A stretch of DNA of 64,000 nucleotides from Gammaproteobacteria bacterium (GTDB taxonomy: Bacteria > Pseudomonadota > Gammaproteobacteria > Pseudomonadales > JAUIET01). The DNA lies in the NCBI GenBank assembly GCA_030429735.1, contig JAUIET010000010.1, positions 124,001-188,000 on the forward strand. The letters run 5' to 3'. The notes beneath the pieces were generated by a model. That model saw only the letters and a program-made list of their open reading frames with translations, was not told the DNA's origin and made no database searches. Position numbers and translations under genes: made by a program. Positions within the stretch are counted from its first letter, which is position 1, and every line of letters begins with the position of its first letter. This document shows positions 20,981-59,818 of this stretch, piece by piece.

Positions 20981-22936
20981 CTACGCGCAGTAATGGCGTA
21001 GCCAAGCTTGAAACATCAGTACGTCCCACAGATAACCTTCTTTGTTACCGTGCCCAGCCAGATGTGCCTCCCACAGACCGCGAATTGGAGCTGGGTCAAA
21101 ATAGCCTTCATCACGCAGTTTGGCTTCATCCAACAAATCCTCCGCCCAATCGCGAAGTTCATTGCGCAGCCATTGCCCTATCGGTGCGGCAAATCCCATT
21201 TTAGGTCGGTCTATCAGCTCTCGCGGTACATATTGGTACAACACTTCGCGTAGCAGCCACTTGCCCGTTCCGTTTCTGATTTTCATATGCAGCGGCATTG
21301 TCCAGGCCAATTCAACCAGCCGATGATCTAACAATGGTGCTCTTGTTTCCAGGCTGCAAGCCATTGCTGCTCGATCTAAGCGTACTAAGTTGTCTTCTGG
21401 AATGTAATGTTTTGCGTCCATTGCCATCATCCAATCGCGCAAATCGTTTGCTTGGGGCCATGTATCCCGCGAGTTTAAAAAGGTAGCAGCCTCGGGTGCA
21501 TCAAGCACAACCTGGTTCGCATTTTTCCAATGACTTAGCCTGTCAGCGTAGTAGAGCTCTCCCTGGTTTATCCTCATTGCGTCGGCAATTTTATGAAGCT
21601 TATCGCCGGGCCATGCAATGCCTTGGGAGCGGTGTATAAAAGAGTTAACCAGTTTATACGCTGAATCCCATCGGTGTGTTGGCACAGACTGTAAAAATAC
21701 TGAAATCACTTTGCGTAAGGGTAAAGGCAAGGTCTTTAGCTGGCTCCACACTTTATAGCCGCCCAAATAGCGGTTATAGCCACCGAAAAGCTCATCACCA
21801 CCATCACCGTCCAGTGCCACCTTTACATGTTGACTGGTAAGCTGGCAGATAAGATATGTTGGAAGTTGAGAACTATTGCTAAATGGCTCGCTATAAATAT
21901 CCGGCAGTTTTGGTACCAACTTCAATGCATCATCAGGGCTGACCCGTAACTCGGTATGATCGGTTCCCAAATGTTCTGCGACTTGTCGCGCGTGTACTGC
22001 TTCGTTGTGGCTGCCTTCGCTGTAGCCTATGGTGAACGTTTTTACAGATTGAGTGCTGTTTTTCTGCATTAACGCCACGATAACAGAGCTATCTATTCCA
22101 CCACTGAGAAAAGCCCCAAGAGGAACATCCGAAATCAGTTGATCACTGACGCTACTTGAAAGTTGGCGCTCTAACAGTGCTATTGCTTCGGTATCAGTGC
22201 CTTGAAACTGCGTGGCCAACCCCATATGAGCAGCATCATTAACCGACCAATATGGCGCTGACTGCATCGTTTTTTCAGCAGAGCATGGCTGCAGCGTGAG
22301 GTAGTGCCCCGGCATGAGTTTGGAAATACCGGAATAGATACTGTGCGGTGAAGGTATGCAGTTATGACGCAAAAGAAGTGCAATCGCACTGCGATTCACT
22401 TCTTTTTTGAAACTAGGGTGAACGCTTAGAGCATTTAGCTCTGAGCCGAACAAGAAAACGTTGTTTTGCCAGCCATAGTAAAGCGGCTTTTCTCCCATAC
22501 GATCTCGAGCAAGTGACAAGGTGTGCATTTTCCTGTCCCAGAGGGCAAAGGCGAACATACCGACGCAGGCGTTGAGGCTTTTCACGAGCCCCCATTGTGC
22601 GATGCATTGCAACAAAGTTTCGGTATCAGAATGTCCATTCCACCGCGGGGGTTGGTATTGATTTTCCAGCTGATCGCGCAGCCGTAAATGGTTGTAAATC
22701 TCGCCGTTGAATACGATGACATAACGGCCACAATGGGAATGCATCGGTTGGTCGCCTGCTTCAGATAAATCCAAAATGGATAATCTGCGGTGACCAAGAC
22801 CTAGGTTAACTTCTCCGTCTTGCCATAGCCCTTCTCCGTCTGGGCCGCGACGCTCAAGCGCCGATGTCATTAGCTTCAGAACGTGTCTGTCTGATGGGTC
22901 TCTGAAAGGACTAAAATAGCCTGCTATGCCGCACAC
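20981..22936 (-). CDS. Asparagine-synthase-like glutamine amidotransferase, locus A
   Basis: A 651-residue class II amidotransferase. Cys2 of the N-terminal MCGIAGYF is the glutaminase nucleophile and the PP-loop SGGIDSS marks the ATP-pyrophosphatase synthetase domain. It could make asparagine, but in polysaccharide loci such enzymes commonly amidate uronic acids, and a second copy lies in locus B. The start is GTG, overlapping the upstream Sel1-repeat gene's stop by one base (TAGTG). It is the last gene of a four-gene minus-strand unit with the Sel1, VanZ and glycosyltransferase genes. Confidence 0.85.
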   Translation of the reverse strand: MCGIAGYFSPFRDPSDRHVLKLMTSALERRGPDGEGLWQDGEVNLGLGHRRLSILDLSEAGDQPMHSHCGRYVIVFNGEIYNHLRLRDQLENQYQPPRWNGHSDTETLLQCIAQWGLVKSLNACVGMFAFALWDRKMHTLSLARDRMGEKPLYYGWQNNVFLFGSELNALSVHPSFKKEVNRSAIALLLRHNCIPSPHSIYSGISKLMPGHYLTLQPCSAEKTMQSAPYWSVNDAAHMGLATQFQGTDTEAIALLERQLSSSVSDQLISDVPLGAFLSGGIDSSVIVALMQKNSTQSVKTFTIGYSEGSHNEAVHARQVAEHLGTDHTELRVSPDDALKLVPKLPDIYSEPFSNSSQLPTYLICQLTSQHVKVALDGDGGDELFGGYNRYLGGYKVWSQLKTLPLPLRKVISVFLQSVPTHRWDSAYKLVNSFIHRSQGIAWPGDKLHKIADAMRINQGELYYADRLSHWKNANQVVLDAPEAATFLNSRDTWPQANDLRDWMMAMDAKHYIPEDNLVRLDRAAMACSLETRAPLLDHRLVELAWTMPLHMKIRNGTGKWLLREVLYQYVPRELIDRPKMGFAAPIGQWLRNELRDWAEDLLDEAKLRDEGYFDPAPIRGLWEAHLAGHGNKEGYLWDVLMFQAWLRHYCA

Positions 22937-38781: not shown

Positions 38782-41106
38782 ATGATTCCATTATCAGTAC
38801 CAAACCTCTCAGGGAACGAGTGGCGCTATGTCAAAGACTGTCTTGATACTGGCTGGATATCTTCCGCTGGCGAGTACGTCACGCAATTTGAGAACCGCGT
38901 CGCCGAATACACCGGTGCCAAGCACGCAATAGCATGTGTGAATGGCACCGCGGGGCTGCATATTGCGTTGCAACTGGCTGGTGTTGGTTCTGGCGACTAT
39001 GTGGTTGTTCCTAATCTCACGTTCGTGGCAACGCTGAATGCAATAAAATACTGTGGCGCCAGCCCACTACTGATAGATATAGACGCAAACTCCTGGCAAA
39101 TGGATGTGAGTTTGCTGGACGAATTTTTACAACAGAAAACGTCATTTGAAGGAAACCAAAGAGTACTGAGTGCAGACGGCAGAGCCATTAAAGCGCTGCT
39201 TCCCGTGCATGTGCTGGGCAATGTTGGGGACATGCAGCACCTAGAAAAAATTGGCTTGCAGTATGGTATCCCGATAGTAGAGGACGCCTGTGAGGCTCTT
39301 GGTTCATACTACAAAGGCCGGCATTGTGGCATTGATAACACAATGAGTGTGCTTAGCTTCAATGGCAACAAGATCATATCTACCGGTGGCGGCGGTATGA
39401 TTCTCACATCAGATACTGAATTGGCCCGCCAGGCATCTCATTTAACGACTCAGGCAAAAATAGCGGTAGATGAATACGACCATGACCAGGTTGCTTACAA
39501 TTATCGCTTGGTTAACGTATTGGCAGCCATTGGTCTTGCTCAAATGGAAAAGTTCACCGAAGTGCTGGCCCGCAATAAACGACGGGATCAATTTTATCGG
39601 GAGGAACTGGGGCGTTTCAATCTATTTGATTTTCAGGAAGTTAGCCCGGAAGTAAACCCAAATTGTTGGTTGTTCACTTTCCGAACCGCAAAAAAGGCGG
39701 AGTTGATCGCGTTTTTGGATGAGCAGGGGGTGCAATCGCGGCCATTCTGGCGGCCGATGAACAGTTTGCCAATGTATTCCAACGAACAATACGTAACTCA
39801 CAACGATGCGGCCTATCTCGTGTACCAAGAGGCGATCAGTATACCCAGTTCCAGCTCAATTACTGACGCTGAGTTAGAGCAGGTAGTTGAGGCAATTGCG
39901 CGCTTTTTTGATCGAAGTGTTCCACAGCGCTCACTGAGTGCGTTAGAGCCAAAGCTGACAGAAGCGCAGCCAGATTGGAAAGTGCAACTGTTCGAATTGA
40001 ACTACGACGATGCAGAAGCGTCTGCGGCCAAACGAGTGATAGACAGCCGCTGGATCACTATGGGTGATCAAATTAAAACGTTTGAGTTAAAGTTTGCTGA
40101 GCTGCTGCAAAACAGAGTGATGTGTAAGGCTATGTCCAGTTGTACAGCAGCGTTGCATACCGCTCTGATGGCGCTGGATATTGGTGTTGGCGACGAAGTT
40201 ATTGTACCTGCCCTAACGTTTGTTGCAGATGCAAATGTGTGCCGAATTGTTGGTGCTACTCCCGTACCTGCCGATTGTGATTCGATGAATCACTGGAATA
40301 TGTCAGCAGCAACGATTGAGGCAAAAATAACTGAGAAAACAAGGGCTGTCATCATCGTTCATTATGCCGGCTACAGTTGCGATATGGACCCAATCGTCGA
40401 CTTATGCAAGCGAAAAAACCTCTTTCTAATTGAGGATGCCGCACATGCACCCGGTGCCAGCTACAAAGGGCAGCCCTGTGGCACATTTGGTGATTTTGGT
40501 TGCTTTTCTTTTTTTACGAACAAGAATATATCTATCGGTGAAGGCGGTATGTTAGTGACCGCTTCGAAAGAGTTAGCCGAAAAAACGGGTTTTATTCGGT
40601 CGCAGGGAATGACCAGCCAAACCCTAGACAGGCATAGAGGGCGCGCCAATACATACGATGTTGCTATTCCCGGTCTAAACTACCGTATGGACGAAATGCG
40701 CGCCGCAATTGGTTTGGCGCAACTTGAGAAATTGGCACCAGGCAACAGCGCGCGTCGAAACTTGTCACTTCGATATAGAGAACTGCTAGCGGACTGCGAG
40801 GGTATTCTTATTCCATTCACGGTAAATGAAAACTCTGAACCTGCATTTCATATTTTTCCAGTGTTGTTACCCGATCGAGTCGAAAGAACAGCCGTGATAA
40901 AAAGCATGCAGGCAGATCAGATACAAACAAGCATCCACTATTTATCGTTTCGAGAGTTCACGGCTTATCAAGACGCAGAATTTGGCCCTACACCGAATGC
41001 GGATGTTATATCGAAGAGGGTGCTCACGTTGCCGTTATTTCCGACCATGACCGTTACGCAGTGCGAGCAGGTGGTTGCCAGCTTGCGCAAGGCGCTAGGG
41101 CAATAG
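38782..41106 (+). CDS. Tandem fusion of two DegT/DnrJ/EryC1 aminotransferases
   Basis: A 774-residue protein made of two complete PLP-dependent sugar aminotransferase domains. Domain 1 (about 1-375) starts PLSVPNLSGNEWRYVKDCL and carries Lys197 in FNGNKIISTGGGG. Domain 2 (about 392-774) carries Lys581 in FFTNKNISIGEGG. Both Lys are positioned to bind PLP, and both domains keep the DAC/DAA and C-terminal substrate segments, so both may be active. Domain 1 resembles LegC/PerA-like enzymes. The gene opens locus B ahead of the sugar-transferase gene. The dual reaction is unknown. Confidence 0.87.
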   Translation: MIPLSVPNLSGNEWRYVKDCLDTGWISSAGEYVTQFENRVAEYTGAKHAIACVNGTAGLHIALQLAGVGSGDYVVVPNLTFVATLNAIKYCGASPLLIDIDANSWQMDVSLLDEFLQQKTSFEGNQRVLSADGRAIKALLPVHVLGNVGDMQHLEKIGLQYGIPIVEDACEALGSYYKGRHCGIDNTMSVLSFNGNKIISTGGGGMILTSDTELARQASHLTTQAKIAVDEYDHDQVAYNYRLVNVLAAIGLAQMEKFTEVLARNKRRDQFYREELGRFNLFDFQEVSPEVNPNCWLFTFRTAKKAELIAFLDEQGVQSRPFWRPMNSLPMYSNEQYVTHNDAAYLVYQEAISIPSSSSITDAELEQVVEAIARFFDRSVPQRSLSALEPKLTEAQPDWKVQLFELNYDDAEASAAKRVIDSRWITMGDQIKTFELKFAELLQNRVMCKAMSSCTAALHTALMALDIGVGDEVIVPALTFVADANVCRIVGATPVPADCDSMNHWNMSAATIEAKITEKTRAVIIVHYAGYSCDMDPIVDLCKRKNLFLIEDAAHAPGASYKGQPCGTFGDFGCFSFFTNKNISIGEGGMLVTASKELAEKTGFIRSQGMTSQTLDRHRGRANTYDVAIPGLNYRMDEMRAAIGLAQLEKLAPGNSARRNLSLRYRELLADCEGILIPFTVNENSEPAFHIFPVLLPDRVERTAVIKSMQADQIQTSIHYLSFREFTAYQDAEFGPTPNADVISKRVLTLPLFPTMTVTQCEQVVASLRKALGQ

Positions 41107-41123: not shown

Positions 41124-41795
41124 TTGATACGATTTCTAGACATAGTATTGTCTTCAATTGCGTTAATTCTTTTGCTGCCGGTACTACTTCTTGTTGCGGT
41201 GATTTTAGCCCTGACCGGAGAGCGGCAGGTTTTTTACAAGCAATCGCGTATCGGGCTGCAAGGCGCGGAATTTTCACTTCTGAAGTTTGCAACGATGAAG
41301 AAAGATAGCGTGAGCATCGGCGGGCCACTAACTAAGAGAGATGACCCAAGAGTATTGCCATTTGGACGCATTCTGCGAGCTACGAAGATCAATGAATTAC
41401 CACAACTAATTAATGTGCTGTGTGGTGATATGAGTATTATTGGTCCGAGACCCCAGATACACGCCCATTTCCTGCTCTATGATGAGTCAGTGCGAAGCGA
41501 GCTGATAAAGATTAAACCGGGGTTGAGCGGTACGGGGTCGATCATTTTTAGGGATGAAGAGCGGTTGTTTGAACTGATCGACGGTGAAAGAGATGATATA
41601 TACGCTAGTCATATAGCTCCTTATAAAGGATTGGTCGAAGCTTGGTATGTAGATAACTACTCGGTTTTCACCTATTTTTTGCTTATATTTTTGACAATTG
41701 AGGTAGTCGTCAGACCAGAGAGCAAACTGTACCAAAAATTGCTACCGACTTTGCCAGTACCGCGAGGAGAGTTGGCGCGCCATTTTAATAACTAA
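41124..41795 (+). CDS. Bacterial sugar transferase (monotopic initiating PGT)
   Basis: A 223-residue phosphoglycosyltransferase with one N-terminal membrane hairpin (about 2-28) and the catalytic core: FYKQSRIGLQGAEFSLLKFATM, ATKINELPQLINVLCGDMSIIGPRP and KPGLSGTG. It transfers a sugar-1-phosphate to undecaprenyl phosphate (PglC/WcaJ-like). A TTG start at 41124 follows AAAGG. It lies 17 bases after the fused aminotransferase, suggesting a 4-amino sugar as its substrate. It is the second initiating enzyme in the window. Confidence 0.88.
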   Translation: MIRFLDIVLSSIALILLLPVLLLVAVILALTGERQVFYKQSRIGLQGAEFSLLKFATMKKDSVSIGGPLTKRDDPRVLPFGRILRATKINELPQLINVLCGDMSIIGPRPQIHAHFLLYDESVRSELIKIKPGLSGTGSIIFRDEERLFELIDGERDDIYASHIAPYKGLVEAWYVDNYSVFTYFLLIFLTIEVVVRPESKLYQKLLPTLPVPRGELARHFNN

Positions 41796-44932: not shown

Positions 44933-45898
<966 letters not shown>

Positions 45899-47466: not shown

Positions 47467-47611
47467 CTACTTTCGGTCTTGAACTTCTATTTCTAAAGGG
47501 ATGGTGGCTAGACTCTTATGTGAGTTTTGAGTGCTCGTTAGGCTGACAGATGGTAGCAATACCAGTCATGTACGCGTGTATTATAGGCCCACATAACAAA
47601 TGGAGAATTGC

Positions 47612-48196
47612 GTGACGTTTACAGCACACGAAACTGCAATTATAGATGATGGAGCAACGATCGGCAGTGGCAGTCGCGTCTGGCATTTCGTTCATGTGTG
47701 TGCAGGGGCGCATATTGGAGAGGGCGTCTCGCTCGGGCAAAACGTGTTCGTTGGCAATAACGTGCGTATAGGTGACCGGTGCAAAATTCAGAATAACGTG
47801 TCTGTTTACGACAATGTTTACCTTGAACAGGATGTGTTTTGTGGTCCAAGCATGGTGTTCACCAATGTATACAATCCAAGGTCTTCGGTGAATCGCAAAT
47901 CAGAGTATCGAGATACCTATGTGAACAAAGGTGCTACCTTGGGTGCCAACTGTACAGTTGTTTGTGGCGTAACCATCGGAGAATTTGCTTTCATAGGTGC
48001 GGGTGCTCTGGTTAATAGAGATATAAAGCCGTTTGAGCTGGTTGTAGGCGTGCCCGGAAAACAAATAGGCTGGATGAGTGAATTTGGGGAGCGGCTCAAT
48101 CTCCCGATACACGGCAATGGCGTTGAGACCTGCGAACATACTGGGCAAGTTTACGTTCTGGAAGCCGGAGTTCTTCGGCAGCAGGTTGAAGAGTGA
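47612..48196 (+). CDS. WbpD-like UDP-sugar N-acetyltransferase
   Basis: A 194-residue left-handed beta-helix acyltransferase with hexapeptide repeats. [46 protein letters not shown] and [14 protein letters not shown] match the WbpD/WlbB signature. It acetylates the 3-amino group of UDP-GlcNAc3NA. I chose the GTG at 47612, since GGAG lies six bases upstream and the protein then starts in register with WbpD; an ATG at 47600 is also possible. The stop overlaps the WbpE-like start by 4 bases. Confidence 0.9.
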
Positions 48197-49314
48197 GTAT
48201 CCAATTTATAGATTTAAAGGCCCAATATCAGCATTTGCAGCCAAGAATCGACCGGCGAATTGCCGGGGTGCTAGCCAAAGCAGACTTTATTCTTGGCGAC
48301 GAGGTCGGAGAATTAGAAGAAAAACTGGCGGAGTTTGTCGGTGTAAAGCACGTAATCAGCTGCGCTAACGGAACTGATGCACTTCAGCTAAGCTTGATGA
48401 CCTTGGGTATTGGCGCCGGAGACGCGGTATTCTGCCCAACATTCACTTTTTTCGCATCCGCTGAAGTTATTGCCTTAGCAGGTGCCACTCCAATATTTGT
48501 AGACGTAGATAGAGAAACGTTTAATCTTTGTTCCAAAGACCTGGCTCGCAAAATTGACCAGCTGTCTGCTGATTCGACATTGACTCCAAAAGCAATTATG
48601 GCCGTTGATTTATTTGGATTGCCTGCGAATTTCGATGAACTTGCCAAGGTAGCGAAAGAGACCGGCATGTATCTAATTGAAGATGCCGCGCAGGGGTTTG
48701 GTGGTGCCATTGATGCGCGACGAGCGTGTTCCTTCGGCGATATTGCTACAACAAGCTTTTTTCCGGCCAAACCTCTGGGTTGTTATGGTGATGGAGGGGC
48801 AGTTTTCACCGACAAAGATGACTATGCTGATTTACTTCGATCATACCGGGTGCACGGTAAAGGCGATAATAAGTACCACAATGTTCGGGTAGGGCTGAAC
48901 AGTCGGCTGGATACTATCCAGGCTGCTATATTGCTGGAAAAGCTTGAAGAATTCCCTCTTGAATTAAAGCGCAGGAATGAAATAGCCGAGCATTACTCCA
49001 GATCATTGTGCGCTAAGTACGATGTACCACGGGTACCAACAGGGTATACAAGCGCCTGGGCACAGTATACTTTACGAAACCTTGAGAACCGCGACCACAT
49101 AGGCAACACACTTCGCCAGTCCAATATACCAAGTGCGGTTTACTACGCCACCTGCATGCACGAACAACCAGTATTCGATAGCCTGAGGCAGGTCTCAAAT
49201 CATCAGCACCCTGTGGCCGAAAGCCTGGCGCGCACTTGCCTGAGTATACCCATGCATCCTTATCTCAGTGATGCTGAAGTGGACACGATTGTAATGTCAC
49301 TTTTGTCTTGCTAA
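48193..49314 (+). CDS. WbpE-like UDP-sugar 3-aminotransferase
   Basis: A 373-residue DegT/DnrJ/EryC1 aminotransferase. The start [18 protein letters not shown] and the PLP Lys193 in [14 protein letters not shown] agree with WbpE/WlbC, which aminates the 3-keto product of WbpB. The GTG start overlaps the WbpD-like stop (GTGA). Only one aminotransferase domain is present, unlike the fused protein at 38782. Confidence 0.9.
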
Positions 49315-49353: not shown

Positions 49354-51186
49354 ATGTGTGGAATAAGCGGAATTATCAGTTTGTCGGGTGGCGGTGTTGA
49401 CGAAAATCGTCTTCACGCTATGAACGAACTAATCGAACACAGAGGGCCTGATGGAGAAGGTTACTACATAGAAGGTCCTATCGGCCTGGCCCATCGTCGC
49501 TTGGCGATCCTGGATTTGAGTGAGGACGGTGCTCAACCCATGTGCACTGAGTCTGGCCTGGTGATTGTGTTCAATGGGGAAATATACAACTATATCGAGC
49601 TCAGGGAGCAATTACAGGAAAGAGGACATAAGTTCGTTACCGGAACTGACACAGAAGTAATCCTTGCAGCTTATACGGAGTGGGGAACCGATTGTGTACG
49701 TCGCTTTAATGGCATGTGGGCCTTCGCTCTGTATGACAGCAAGCATAACCGTTTGTTTTGTAGCCGTGATCGATTTGGTGTTAAACCTTTCTATTACACA
49801 TTGATAGATGGGGTTCTCTCATTCGGTTCCGAGATCAAACAACTCATCGACGCTGCGCCTAAGGCAAATAGTAGGATTATTGTAGAGTTTCTAGTCGCCC
49901 AGGTGCTGGAACACAAGGACGAAACCTTTTTTGATGGCGTGAAAAAACTTCCACCATCCCACAATTTAATCGTGGATATTGCCAGTGGCAAGCTACGGTT
50001 TGAGCGCTACTTTGAGATAGCTCGTAATGAGGAAGTTGCGAAGCTCTCTACCGATGAGGCAATGACTCTTCTTCAATCTGAGCTTAAGCGATCGGTTGAA
50101 TATCGCTTACGATCTGATGTGACAGTAGGAACCTGTTTAAGCGGTGGTTTGGACAGCTCCAGCGTTGCTGCTGAAGCTGCATCGCAGCTCAAAGAAGGTG
50201 GGCACCAACATAAACTCACCGCAATTACGGCTGTTTCCAGTGAGCCTGAAGGAGACGAAAGTGAGTTCGCGCGGCAGGTTGTGGACGCAGCCGGCCTGCA
50301 TTGGGTAACAATTCAGCCTGCAAATAGCGAATTTGAAGATTCACTGGATGAAGTGATTTATACGCAGGAAGAGCCATTTGGTGGCCCTTCTATTTTTATG
50401 CAATATTTCGTGATGCAGGAGGCTAAACGCCAAGGGTGTAAAGTGATGTTGGACGGCCAAGGCGGTGACGAAACGCTGCTAGGCTATGAAAAGTACTATC
50501 CGGCGGCCTACTACGCCTATTGGCAGCGACATGGCTTCATCAAAACGGTGAAAGAAATTCTGCAGTCTAGAAAAAACAACACCAAAATGAGTGTTGCCTG
50601 GATCCTTACCTATGTCTTCGGTATGTTTTTTTCGAGCCTTCGTAAGCGCCTGTATAAGCATAAGTGTAAATTCATAAAACCGGAATTCCTGAACGCGAGT
50701 GATTACTCTCACTTGGACGATATTTCAAGGTATTGCCTGGATGTTTTTGAGCTGCAAAAGTATGAAATTGAGTCAACCAATCTCCCCGTCTTATTGCGTT
50801 ACGAAGACAAAAACTCGATGCGCCATTCAATAGAAACAAGGCTACCTTTTGTTGATTTTCAAATGCTCCAAAATTCTCTAAACCTGAGTGTGGAGCATAA
50901 GATTAAGTCAGGTTGGACAAAATATATTCTCAGAAAGTCAGTGGAAGCAATGTTACCGGCTACAGTCGTCTGGCGAAAAAATAAGTTTGGCTTTGCCGCC
51001 CCTGAAAAAACATGGTTAGAAGCCCAGCAACAACAAATGTTGGATGAGGTGAAGGCTTCTAAGATACTTGGCAACTTATGCAACCGGGAAAAACTTATTG
51101 AATCGTTTCCAGATCTAGACCTGCGATTGAAGTGGAGGGTGTATAACATTGCGGCATGGGAGAGGCTGTTTAATGTCTCACCATAA
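49354..51186 (+). CDS. Asparagine-synthase-like amidotransferase, locus B
   Basis: A 610-residue class II amidotransferase. Cys2 of MCGISGII is the glutaminase nucleophile and SGGLDSSSV is the PP-loop. The neighbouring WbpB/D/E/I set makes a uronic acid, so conversion of a uronate to the uronamide (as done by WbpS-like enzymes) is a more likely role than asparagine synthesis. The last 14 bases overlap the following glycosyltransferase gene. Confidence 0.85.
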   Translation: MCGISGIISLSGGGVDENRLHAMNELIEHRGPDGEGYYIEGPIGLAHRRLAILDLSEDGAQPMCTESGLVIVFNGEIYNYIELREQLQERGHKFVTGTDTEVILAAYTEWGTDCVRRFNGMWAFALYDSKHNRLFCSRDRFGVKPFYYTLIDGVLSFGSEIKQLIDAAPKANSRIIVEFLVAQVLEHKDETFFDGVKKLPPSHNLIVDIASGKLRFERYFEIARNEEVAKLSTDEAMTLLQSELKRSVEYRLRSDVTVGTCLSGGLDSSSVAAEAASQLKEGGHQHKLTAITAVSSEPEGDESEFARQVVDAAGLHWVTIQPANSEFEDSLDEVIYTQEEPFGGPSIFMQYFVMQEAKRQGCKVMLDGQGGDETLLGYEKYYPAAYYAYWQRHGFIKTVKEILQSRKNNTKMSVAWILTYVFGMFFSSLRKRLYKHKCKFIKPEFLNASDYSHLDDISRYCLDVFELQKYEIESTNLPVLLRYEDKNSMRHSIETRLPFVDFQMLQNSLNLSVEHKIKSGWTKYILRKSVEAMLPATVVWRKNKFGFAAPEKTWLEAQQQQMLDEVKASKILGNLCNREKLIESFPDLDLRLKWRVYNIAAWERLFNVSP

Positions 51187-52279
51187 ATCGGTCTGCCATA
51201 TTACGACTGCGCACCCGCGCAACGATACACGGATATTTCTGAAACAGTGCCAGAGCCTCTCTAGTTTTGGTTATCATGTTTCGCTTATTGTTAATGACGG
51301 GCAGGGCAATTCAGAGCAGACAGGAGTTCGAATAGTCGACCTTGGTGGGCACAAGGGTAGATTGGGCAGGGCATTGGTAGCAGTGCCAAAGGCTGTGAAT
51401 GCTGCACTTCGCGAAAAATGCGATGTATATCACTTCCATGACCCGGAATTGATACCTGTAGGTGTAATGCTAGCTGTGTTGGGTAAATCAGTTATTTACG
51501 ATGTACATGAAGATTTGCCTAATGACATTATGGACAAACCTTGGATTGCGCCCCGGCTCCGGCGTGGTGTTTCAGCGTGTGCAAGCGTGGTGGAGCGGCT
51601 CTCTGTTAAACTATTTGCTGGTGTTGTTTGTGCTACGCCGTTCATTACCGAGCGGTTCAAGGCGATGCATAACAATGTAGAGAATATCAATAACTACCCA
51701 ATTATTGGAGAGCTACAATCTGAACCACATGCGACACGAAGCGGAAACAGAGCCGTGTATGTGGGTGGAATTTCCGTTCTAAGAGGAATTTTACCTGTCG
51801 TCAAAAGCTTGCATAACTCGAACGTAAAGCTCGATTTGCTTGGTACTTTCAGTATCCCGCATGAAAGAGAAGCGGCATGTCATACGCCTGGCTGGGAAAA
51901 CGTTTGTGAACATGGCTTCGCAGATCGACAGAGGGTCGCTGAATTTATGGCCGATTCAATTGCCGGTATTGTTACCTTTCTGCCTTGTTCGAATCATGTA
52001 AATGCGCAGCCAAACAAAATGTTCGAATATATGTCGGCTGGGTTGCCCGTCATTTGTTCTAGTTTTCCGCTATGGCGGGATATCGTAGAAAGTCATAACT
52101 GTGGGATTTGTGTTGACCCGGATAATCCTGCTGAAATTGCGGCCGCACTGCGGCGCTTATGCGAAAATCCGGACCTCGTTCGCGAAATGGGTGAAAACGG
52201 AAAAAAAGCAGTGCTAACTACTTTTAACTGGGCGGCTGAGGCCTCAAAACTAAACGCTATGTATGGCGAAATCAAATGA
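51173..52279 (+). CDS. GT4-like glycosyltransferase
   Basis: A 368-residue GT-B enzyme. CHITTAHPRNDTRIFLKQCQ at the start, DVYHFHDPELIPVG in the middle and NVNAQPNKMFEYMSAGLPVI near the C-terminus identify the GT4-like family. I chose the ATG at 51173 because GGGAGAGG lies a few bases upstream; an earlier start at 51149 is deeper in the preceding gene. The stop overlaps the epimerase start (ATGA). Confidence 0.85.
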   Translation: MSHHKSVCHITTAHPRNDTRIFLKQCQSLSSFGYHVSLIVNDGQGNSEQTGVRIVDLGGHKGRLGRALVAVPKAVNAALREKCDVYHFHDPELIPVGVMLAVLGKSVIYDVHEDLPNDIMDKPWIAPRLRRGVSACASVVERLSVKLFAGVVCATPFITERFKAMHNNVENINNYPIIGELQSEPHATRSGNRAVYVGGISVLRGILPVVKSLHNSNVKLDLLGTFSIPHEREAACHTPGWENVCEHGFADRQRVAEFMADSIAGIVTFLPCSNHVNAQPNKMFEYMSAGLPVICSSFPLWRDIVESHNCGICVDPDNPAEIAAALRRLCENPDLVREMGENGKKAVLTTFNWAAEASKLNAMYGEIK

Positions 52280-53352
52280 AAATACTGACTGTAATAGGCG
52301 CAAGGCCACAGTTTATTAAGGCGGCGGCTGTATCGCGCCAACTTAAAGCTACGGATAACATTGAAGAAGTGTTGGTGCACACGGGGCAGCATTTCGACTC
52401 GAACATGAGTGAAATATTCTTTGAGCAAATGGATATTCCCGTACCTGTACATAACCTTGAGGTATCAGGGCTTAGTCATGGCACAATGACCGGTCGAATG
52501 ATGGAAAAACTGGATGTTACATTTGATCAAGAGCAACCTGATGTGGTGATGGTTTATGGGGACACCAACTCCACGCTTGCCGGCGCACTGGTAGCGGCGA
52601 AGCGTCATATTCCTGTTGCTCATGTTGAGGCCGGCTTGCGCAGTTTCAATATGGAAATGCCCGAAGAGATTAACCGTATCTTAACTGATAGAGTGAGCGC
52701 GTTGTTAGCGTGCCCAACTGATACAGCCGTGGAAAACCTAGTTAAAGAGGGCTACGAGCATTTTGGCGCAAGGATAAGAAAATGCGGTGACGTTATGCAG
52801 GACGCAGCGCTCTATTACGCACCGAAGGCCATCCGGCCTGAGGCGCTTGCTGATAATTTTTGCGAGCAGAAATTTGTGTTGGCTACCATCCATAGAGCAG
52901 AAAATGTCGATTGCGAAGCGAATCTCACGGAATGCGTAGGCGCTCTAAACCAGATAAATCGGCGAATGCCGGTGGTGGTTCCATTACATCCCCGTACTAA
53001 AGCCGCCGTGGAAAAGCTCAACCTTGAAGTAGAGTTTACGGTTATCGATCCAGTTGGTTATTTGGAAATGATTTATTTGCTACAACGCTGTCAGATCGTA
53101 CTGACCGACAGCGGTGGCTTACAGAAAGAAGCTTTCTTTTTCGGCAAACCTTGCATCACAATGCGCGAAGAAACCGAATGGGTAGAATTAGTAGCCATTG
53201 GATGTGTCGTGTTAACCGGCTGTCGCAAAGAGGCGATTTTGGAACAGTTTGAGAGTCATCAGCATACGATTGTTACCGATGAAACTAATTTGTATGGTGG
53301 CGGGAATGCGGCTCAAAATATTGTGCACGAACTGGCAAGCTTGGCGCGATAG
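52276..53352 (+). CDS. WbpI-like UDP-GlcNAc(3NAc)A 2-epimerase
   Basis: A 358-residue non-hydrolysing UDP-sugar 2-epimerase. GARPQFIKAAAVSRQL, HTGQHFDSNMSEIFFEQ, YGDTNSTLAGA, HVEAGLRS, PLHPRT and SGGLQKEAFFFGKP are all present. In this setting it should convert UDP-GlcNAc3NAcA to UDP-ManNAc3NAcA as WbpI does, although WecB-type GlcNAc epimerase activity is possible. It ends the plus-strand run. Confidence 0.88.
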   Translation: MKILTVIGARPQFIKAAAVSRQLKATDNIEEVLVHTGQHFDSNMSEIFFEQMDIPVPVHNLEVSGLSHGTMTGRMMEKLDVTFDQEQPDVVMVYGDTNSTLAGALVAAKRHIPVAHVEAGLRSFNMEMPEEINRILTDRVSALLACPTDTAVENLVKEGYEHFGARIRKCGDVMQDAALYYAPKAIRPEALADNFCEQKFVLATIHRAENVDCEANLTECVGALNQINRRMPVVVPLHPRTKAAVEKLNLEVEFTVIDPVGYLEMIYLLQRCQIVLTDSGGLQKEAFFFGKPCITMREETEWVELVAIGCVVLTGCRKEAILEQFESHQHTIVTDETNLYGGGNAAQNIVHELASLAR

Positions 53353-57534: not shown

Positions 57535-58490
57535 TGGACACTAAAAAGCGATACAGGGAATTTTGTGAACAGCAAGTGGCGCTTCCGATTTTTAGTCGAG
57601 ATTGGTGGTTAGACGCTGTATGTGGAGCAGATCAATGGAACGTGGCATTGGTTGAAAAAGGTGGGCAGATTATGGCCAGCCTACCGTATTACTGCCCGCA
57701 CCGAAAATTTTTCAAAGTGTTGTCGATGCCACGGCTCACGCAATCGCTTGGGCCCTATATTGTTTATCCAGAACAGCAATCTTATTACAAGCGATTGTCG
57801 TGGGAGAAGGAATTGATTGGTGAGCTAGTGAGCTCACTCCCCAAATTTGATCATTTTTCCCAGCGGTGCCATGGAAGTACAAAAAATTGGCTACCTTTTC
57901 ATTGGCTTGGTTATACACAAACCACGCTCTGCTCATACATTATTGAGGCGGAACAATACACCAATGGAAAAATTCAAGGAGAAACGAGCGGTAGGCGTAG
58001 GCGGAGAAGCAAGGCAGCAAAGCATGGTATAAAAATTGTTGTGAGTGACGATGTTGCCAGCTTTTATAAGCTAAATATGCGCACCCACCAACGGCAAAAT
58101 AAAGCAATGGACTACGATTTGCCATTTTTAAAATTGCTGTACGATGCTTGTGCGAGGCACAGTGCCGTCAGGCTATCCTTTGCGCAAGATTCGAACGGGC
58201 GACCAATTGCATCATGTTTCCTTATCTACGACCAGAACAGAGCATACTATCTGGCTGGCGGTATTGACCCGGATTTTAAAGACGTGGGTGCTATGGATGC
58301 ACTTCTATTCGACGCGATTGAATATTCTTTATCAAACGGACGGATATTCGATTTTGAAGGTAGTATGGTTGAAAGTATAGAAAGTTATTTTAGGAGTTTT
58401 GGTGCCACTCAGCAGGTGTATTCTGCCATAGCAAAAACACCTTCCAAGGCTTATAGATTGAAAGAGTTCCTGAAAGACATTACTCGATGA
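57531..58490 (+). CDS. FemAB/GNAT-like acyl or aminoacyl transferase
   Basis: A 319-residue protein of the FemAB-like double-GNAT group often found in exopolysaccharide loci. RDWWLDAVCG opens the first half, and the second half has RQNKAMDYDLPFLKLLYDAC, RPIASCFLIYDQNRAYYLAGG and FDFEGSMVESIESYFRSFGA. FemAB proteins move aminoacyl groups from tRNA to cell-wall precursors; here an acyl donor is equally possible. Both neighbours overlap it by 4 bases. Confidence 0.8.
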   Translation: MMDTKKRYREFCEQQVALPIFSRDWWLDAVCGADQWNVALVEKGGQIMASLPYYCPHRKFFKVLSMPRLTQSLGPYIVYPEQQSYYKRLSWEKELIGELVSSLPKFDHFSQRCHGSTKNWLPFHWLGYTQTTLCSYIIEAEQYTNGKIQGETSGRRRRRSKAAKHGIKIVVSDDVASFYKLNMRTHQRQNKAMDYDLPFLKLLYDACARHSAVRLSFAQDSNGRPIASCFLIYDQNRAYYLAGGIDPDFKDVGAMDALLFDAIEYSLSNGRIFDFEGSMVESIESYFRSFGATQQVYSAIAKTPSKAYRLKEFLKDITR

Positions 58491-59818
58491 TCAAGGTAAG
58501 TATTCCGCCTGACAATGAACTAGAGCGCAGATACATTCTGGAGGTTTTGCTAAGCGAATTTCTAAACCTTGAATTTCATGTTGAGATTAGTGACGACAAC
58601 CTGCCTGAATACGAAATAGAAACCAGCGACGGTGCCATTCTCGTTATTCAAGATCACTTTTTCTCACATTACCCCAATGCGCTGAGCTACCTCAGCGAGA
58701 AAAATATTCCCGACACATGCCTCTTCGCCCGCAATCAGTTTACGTACCACGATGACGTACCCATTATCTTTGGCTCGGACGTATGTACGGTCACCGAAAA
58801 TAAGATTGTGTGTGGGGCTGATGTTTTTGCTTCCAGTTTTTTCTTTCTGAGTCGTTGGGAAGAGTATGTTTGCTCAAGCCGGGATACACATCAACGATTT
58901 TCTTCAGAACTCAGCTTTGCCAGAAACGCCGATATTCTCGACCGGCCAGTGGTGAACGAGTATGTAGAAATGTTGGCAGCCATGCTTGCACACTTAGGCG
59001 TGGAAACAGATACAAGAAAGCGTTTACTGACACTGACCCACGACGTGGATGCCTTAACTCGATGGTCTGGTCCGGCACTTCTAATCAAGGTGGTGGCAAA
59101 CAACATTCTAAAAGATCTAAGCCCAGTTGCTGCGCTTGAGAATATTGCAGAGTACTTTCTGATTCGCAGGCGAAGAATTCCTGACCCTTATGACCACTTT
59201 GAATGGCTTATGGAAAGAAGCGAAGCATTGGGTAAAACGTCTATTTTCTATTTCATAAGTGGTGGAAACTCAATATACGATGCGGAGTACGCGTTAAATG
59301 ATCAGGCATGCATCCAATTGATTGATAGTATCAAGCATCGAGGCCACTCAATAGGATTGCATCCTTCATACGATACATACAACAACAGAGCAAAGCTTCA
59401 AACCGAACTATCAACTTTACAACAGGCTATTGGAGGTGAGGTTTCGGAAAGCCGGCAGCACTATTTGCGCTTTGAAGTTCCCACCACCTGGCAAATTCTT
59501 GAAGACCTTTCGATTGCGGTTGACAGTAGTTGCGGTTTTGCGGATCACGCAGGTTTTCGCTGTGGTACCGGGGATGAGTACTCGGTATTTAATGTTCTCA
59601 CCCGTGAAAAACTGCAGTTGAAAGAACGCCCACTGGTGGTAATGGACTGCAGCCTGTTTACCTATAACGACTTGAGCTATTCAGATGCCATGCAAAGTGT
59701 GGAAAAAATGCTGGCAGCGCCTACTTCATTAACCATGCTTTGGCACAACTCGTATACGGTGCATATGCCGTTCTACAAGACGTTTATTGAACGTCGTACG
59801 GGCCGGCAGGCTTTATAG
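58487..59818 (+). CDS. Polysaccharide-deacetylase-like protein
   Basis: A 443-residue protein. An N-terminal domain of about 175 residues precedes a NodB-like domain starting LLTLTHDVDALTRW, where the catalytic THDVD corresponds to the usual TFDDG/TFDVE, and HSIGLHPSYDTY supplies the metal-binding His pair region. LWHNSYTVHMPFY closes the domain. Such proteins deacetylate N-acetyl sugars. No signal peptide is seen, so it may act on cytoplasmic precursors. It overlaps the convergent GT4 gene by 6 bases. Confidence 0.8.
   Translation: MIKVSIPPDNELERRYILEVLLSEFLNLEFHVEISDDNLPEYEIETSDGAILVIQDHFFSHYPNALSYLSEKNIPDTCLFARNQFTYHDDVPIIFGSDVCTVTENKIVCGADVFASSFFFLSRWEEYVCSSRDTHQRFSSELSFARNADILDRPVVNEYVEMLAAMLAHLGVETDTRKRLLTLTHDVDALTRWSGPALLIKVVANNILKDLSPVAALENIAEYFLIRRRRIPDPYDHFEWLMERSEALGKTSIFYFISGGNSIYDAEYALNDQACIQLIDSIKHRGHSIGLHPSYDTYNNRAKLQTELSTLQQAIGGEVSESRQHYLRFEVPTTWQILEDLSIAVDSSCGFADHAGFRCGTGDEYSVFNVLTREKLQLKERPLVVMDCSLFTYNDLSYSDAMQSVEKMLAAPTSLTMLWHNSYTVHMPFYKTFIERRTGRQAL

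Follow-up and report, generated by a model that had tools for sequence, protein, structure and literature searches.

PglE carries out the C4 amination of UDP-4-keto-6-deoxy-GlcNAc. In the PglE-like enzyme Pcryo_0638, residues Thr60, Asp156, Ser180, Lys185 and Asn239 are conserved with PglE and DesI, and the active site is completed by Tyr229 and Lys215 of partner subunit B, with ~5000 Å2 buried between the subunits (PMC8040287). Donors used by small phosphoglycosyl transferases (PGTs) include UDP-diNAcBac and UDP-FucNAc4N (PMC12550135), and EpsCNM together with EpsL of B. subtilis is a tested precedent for diNAcBac priming of an exopolysaccharide (PMC10653937).

Domains and active sites of the fused reading frame

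The stretch of DNA analysed here (the window, 64,000 nucleotides of contig C5) contains an open reading frame at 38782–41106 on the + strand that begins with ATG and encodes 774 residues without an internal stop. PF01041 (DegT/DnrJ/EryC1/StrS) matches it twice, each time over nearly the full profile, with a total of 675.6 bits. The N-terminal domain (residues 1–376; 38782–39909, +) is of the LegC/PglE type: with 440.7 bits it exceeds the curated cut-off of 420 for TIGR04181, the LegC family (profile positions 1–359), and it carries the PglE-like motifs SFNGNKIISTGGGGMI and YNYRLVNVLAAIG. The C-terminal domain (residues 399–774; 39976–41103, +; PF01041 at residues 410–769) falls in an unnamed subfamily of C4-aminotransferases. 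Between them lies a linker (residues 377–398; 39910–39975, +) that we delimited by the positions at which single-domain relatives end and start; at ~21 residues (377/378 to 398) it agrees with the ~20 residues of the initial annotation. That annotation had also read two complete DegT domains in one frame, each with its own PLP lysine, which proved correct: Lys197 (codon 39370–39372, +) was placed by alignment to PglE (1o61) and GDP-perosamine synthase, and Lys581 (codon 40522–40524, +) by alignment to ArnB (1mdo). The two halves are 28–32% identical to each other and belong to different subfamilies, so the fusion is not a recent duplication, in line with the initial annotation. This divergence alone does not prove that the halves use different substrates, since the same substrate can be used by two enzymes at 27% identity (PMC8040287).

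A loss of PLP contacts in one half had been raised as an objection to two working sites, and we found the Thr/Asp/Ser/Lys/Asn set complete in both. The contacts are Thr56, Asp168, Ser192, Lys197 and Asn240 in the N half (aligned to PglE 1o61 and perosamine synthase) and Thr455, Asp552, Ser576, Lys581 and Asn633 in the C half (aligned to ArnB). The reference residues were taken from PMC8040287, and the fusion was placed on them via PglE, perosamine synthase and ArnB rather than via Pcryo_0638 itself. Lysine, not histidine, occupies the PLP position in both halves (GNK197 and TNK581), as in an aminotransferase rather than a dehydratase. When the N half is compared with 87 single-domain relatives, 4 of 88 strongly conserved columns are broken (F185D, E236Q, G238A and K265N), a number of departures that only 8% of the relatives reach; two of these changes, E236Q and G238A, lie beside the NYR loop. 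The C half breaks 1 of 40 such columns when set against 19 relatives. In the tree the N half sits on a long terminal branch, and the sampling around it is thin.

The C half scores 220.4 bits against TIGR04181, below the cut-off of 420, and also stays below the equivalog cut-offs for ArnB, PseC, WecE and RfbH (PseC, 291.8 vs 423.5; ArnB, 270.7 vs 631). Its AlphaFold2 model is confident (pLDDT 95.5), and among solved structures it lies closest to those of two C4-aminotransferases, GDP-perosamine synthase and ArnB (TM ~0.91). Sequence identity is 33–36% to ArnB and perosamine synthase and 26% to PseC. Both halves resemble C4-aminotransferases. A gluco or galacto assignment of the C-half product was considered and dropped, the nearest solved relatives being mixed in this respect.

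The junction and the distribution of the fusion

Counted from the position of residue 366, most relatives of the N half terminate after 11–13 residues, and IKxFY is a frequent ending. At the corresponding place the fusion reads EQVVEAIARFF and continues with DRSVPQ, and the two FF codons form a run of six T (T6; 39904–39909, +). Adding one T to this run produces TGA directly after FF and a 376-residue frame that ends in IARFF, where the relatives usually end; with five T, the stop follows residue 384. Codon 378 (CGA, 39913–39915) is one substitution from TGA. With seven T (T7), TTG start codons for the second frame lie at 39887 and 39896; with six, GTG401 is the first in-frame start codon downstream of the N domain. 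Because the T6 run lies exactly at the end of the N domain and a single extra T restores the usual stop of the relatives, the fusion is probably a one-base event, either recent or artefactual.

A sequencing error at around 39900–40000 had been named in the initial annotation as a possible refutation. Under this explanation the true sequence, or part of the strain, has seven T; the first gene then ends with residue 376, and two ordinary adjacent genes follow each other, the second starting at an overlapping TTG or at GTG401. The position of the T6 run, the 376-residue T7 frame with the ending of its relatives, and the two available TTG codons all fit such an assembly error or within-strain indel, as do the ambiguous codon statistics of the linker, which do not favour coding, and the lack of the fusion in every relative examined. 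However, the relatives begin with MTWKVQL or MWNIQL, which neither TTG reproduces, and no clear ribosome-binding site precedes GTG401. We also scanned 464 kb (400 kb of contig C2 plus the window) for homopolymers of at least 6. There were 359 such runs inside genes and 24 near gene ends, and alteration of 2 of these 24 would join the gene to the next frame, which is below the ~19% obtained per control position. The assembly is thus not generally indel-prone, and a single miscall at T6 is possible. The suspected interval does hold a run whose extension by one T splits the frame, but the assembly shows no general excess of homopolymer frame breaks, which favours a real and recent fusion. We regard the artefact or indel as possible, though not probable.

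The fusion was seen in a single genome. The best 80 relatives of the N half in genome contigs (50–59% identity, mostly Bacteroidota) include no double-DegT protein; they are single-domain and ~376 to 452 residues long in their longest reading. Among 195 order-level genomes there were 35 LegC matches, and only that of the window lies in a frame longer than 505 residues, the other 34 being single-domain; in the one further genome searched from the genus, LegC is a separate protein of 378 residues. Relatives of the C half likewise stand alone, at 55% identity in genome G486 (L172), 50% in G289 (L029) and 44–49% elsewhere. Within its own genome the fusion is the sole copy of either aminotransferase, with no other LegC or C-half copy. 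The search for other proteins with two PF01041 domains that had been suggested as a check returned none among the relatives examined or among the strongest PF01041 matches listed from 249 genomes. Five long frames among these listed matches were examined: in three of them DegT is fused to an RmlD-like reductase, and the other two are no more than long open frames; the 885-residue frame of L140 and other long open frames were rejected as second examples, not being double DegT. Plasmids yielded only separate genes in tandem, from one Streptomyces record, and no double-DegT protein, and viral contigs yielded distant single-domain relatives only, with no fusion. In the literature searched we found no description of a chain with two complete DegT aminotransferases.

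Two modules and their priming transferases

The fused gene ends 17 bases upstream of a gene for a small PglC-like initiating PGT (41124–41795, +; PF02397), whose position was examined in a PGT tree. Of the 80 N-half relatives, 73 have a PglC-like gene in their locus, in most cases directly downstream. In Bacteroidota, genes for a PF02719 dehydratase and a PglC-like PGT often come after the relative. In several of these loci the dehydratase and PGT are 60–69% identical to a pair on contig C2 of the fusion's own genome (67% and 66%, respectively, in L038). The C2 pair (L155:570–2624, within the first 3 kb) lies at the contig end without an aminotransferase and is closest to the LegC operons of Bacteroidota. 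Relatives of the C half in G486 and G289 accompany a different type of dehydratase and a PGT of their own; these two dehydratases are 71% identical to each other and 40–43% identical to the C2 dehydratase. Relatives of each half work in a module of their own, usually with one such aminotransferase beside the PGT.

A tree of 85 small PGTs placed the PGT of the window with those of G289 and G486 (support 0.94) and the C2 PGT with the PGTs of LegC modules. By phylogeny, then, the PGT at 41124 groups as the cognate of the C half. At the thresholds used, the second dehydratase type, found beside C-half relatives in other genomes, is absent from the genome of the fusion, which leaves the source of the C-half substrate uncertain. 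The parts of a bacillosamine-type module found in this genome are the PF02719 dehydratase and PGT on C2, together with a NeuD/PglD-like acetyltransferase also on C2 but unlinked to the pair (L155:9601–10257; 151.6 bits, below the cut-off of 160.8).

Two side observations concern the modules of C-half relatives. In the C-half module of G289, the PGT and dehydratase genes are separated by a LegC-type fragment without the lysine region (L029:10716–11183), which suggests that both aminotransferase types once shared this locus. In G189 (L157:12539–14005) and G327 (L158:6294–7859), C-half relatives are accompanied by PGTs in which the PGT domain precedes the membrane/nucleotide-binding part, opposite to the usual order in long PGTs.

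The initial annotation had suggested either an intramolecular dimer or two aminations, with a diamino sugar as the possible product for the adjoining transferase. Two intact sites and a gene ending only 17 bases before that transferase are what such a pathway would have. Against it, both halves are of the C4 type, and a single amination of a GlcNAc derivative already yields a 2,4-diamino sugar. The LegC partners are moreover a different dehydratase and PGT, whose counterparts in this genome lie on C2, the adjoining PGT groups with C-half modules, and one such aminotransferase usually serves each module. We consider this double amination very improbable.

We give roughly even odds (~0.5) to the reading we prefer, that of a recent natural fusion of two neighbouring C4-aminotransferase genes, serving two priming branches. 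A one-base change at T6, where the first gene formerly stopped, would have joined the neighbours. The N half is predicted to aminate C4 of UDP-4-keto-6-deoxy-GlcNAc in a bacillosamine-type route, drawing on the dehydratase encoded on C2, and its product, once acetylated, would supply the PglC-like transferase of the same contig. The C half would act as a second C4-aminotransferase and supply the PglC-like transferase immediately downstream, so that the amination steps of two chain-priming branches would reside on one chain. The assignment to two branches rests on the PGT tree and on the C2 dehydratase-PGT pair, which place the halves in different modules. Two 4-amino sugars are a reasonable putative pair of products, given that UDP-diNAcBac and UDP-FucNAc4N are among the donors of small PGTs (PMC12550135). 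Occurrence of the fusion in a single genome weighs against this reading, as do the long branch of the N half and its lost conserved residues beside the NYR loop (E236Q, G238A). Further points against it are the T6 run, which makes a one-base artefact possible, the absence of the second dehydratase type, and the score of the C2 acetyltransferase below its cut-off.

Other genes of the polysaccharide region were noted in passing. The window intervals 44933–45889, 47600–49314, 52276–53352 and 58487–59818 hold a Gfo/Idh oxidoreductase, a hexapeptide acetyltransferase, a third DegT protein, a WecB-type 2-epimerase (311.7 bits, above its cut-off) and a distant VimE-like deacetylase homologue that scores below cut-off. 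Together these genes look like a UDP-2,3-diacetamido-uronate pathway, in which the third DegT would be a C3-aminotransferase. A legionaminic-acid role of the N half, considered on account of a downstream NeuB-like gene, is not favoured because the 2-epimerase of the window is of the non-hydrolysing WecB type. About 5 kb past the window end, on the same contig (L159:5468–7198), a 576-residue protein combines an N-terminal cytidylyltransferase with a C-terminal NeuB plus SAF and is possibly a two-step nonulosonate enzyme. The region also contains two asparagine-synthase-like amidotransferases (20981–22936 and 49354–51186).

Chain pairing and known systems

In the preferred two-branch reading, like halves most probably continue to pair with one another (N:N and C:C). 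We also weighed a single-chain pseudo-heterodimer, in which the N and C halves pack like a usual DegT dimer and complete each other's sites, or in which one half is mainly structural. The completion of the site by the partner subunit in Pcryo_0638 (PMC8040287) makes such packing conceivable, the ~21-residue linker is long enough in principle, and the E236Q and G238A changes flank the NYR loop. Yet after a seemingly recent fusion, two halves at ~30% identity would need to evolve a large shared interface anew, and both catalytic residue sets are kept. The full-length AlphaFold2 model was uninformative on this point (7-row alignment, mean pLDDT 48) and was set aside; MAFFT stacked both single-domain families on one half, so that the alignment was too shallow. 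On balance this arrangement seems unlikely to us. Its more ambitious form, a heterodimeric aminotransferase in which the unlike halves complete each other's sites and one polypeptide feeds two priming branches in a fixed ratio, we hold to be quite unlikely. A –1 slip at T6 (C TTT TTT GA), which would give UGA after residue 376, might in addition produce some N half on its own.

Should the fusion prove real, two chain-initiating branches that otherwise run separately would have their amination steps physically tied together, and the protein would offer a clean test of whether a family of obligate homodimers can form an unlike pair. If T6 is a miscall, the locus is a useful warning about fused-gene calls.

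The N half shares with C. jejuni PglE (1o61/4ztc) the TIGR04181 family, the lysine motif NGNKII and the YNYRLxNV loop, but known members are single-domain homodimers, whereas here the domain is joined to a second aminotransferase. With ArnB, GDP-perosamine synthase and PseC, the C half has the fold and the lysine motif in common, and with ArnB also the EDAAHAxG motif, but it falls below the ArnB and PseC equivalog cut-offs. In three other genomes of the phylum (L188, L189 and L190) an RmlD-like reductase and a PseC/ArnB-like DegT domain form one chain with two sugar-nucleotide steps. There too, DegT is fused to another sugar-nucleotide enzyme, but the partner looks like an RmlD-type reductase, whereas in the window it is a second DegT. 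EpsC, EpsN, EpsM and EpsL of B. subtilis provide a comparable set of dehydratase, C4-aminotransferase, acetyltransferase and small monotopic PGT (PMC10653937); here, by contrast, the candidate genes are distributed over C2 and C5, and the aminotransferase shares its chain with that of another module.
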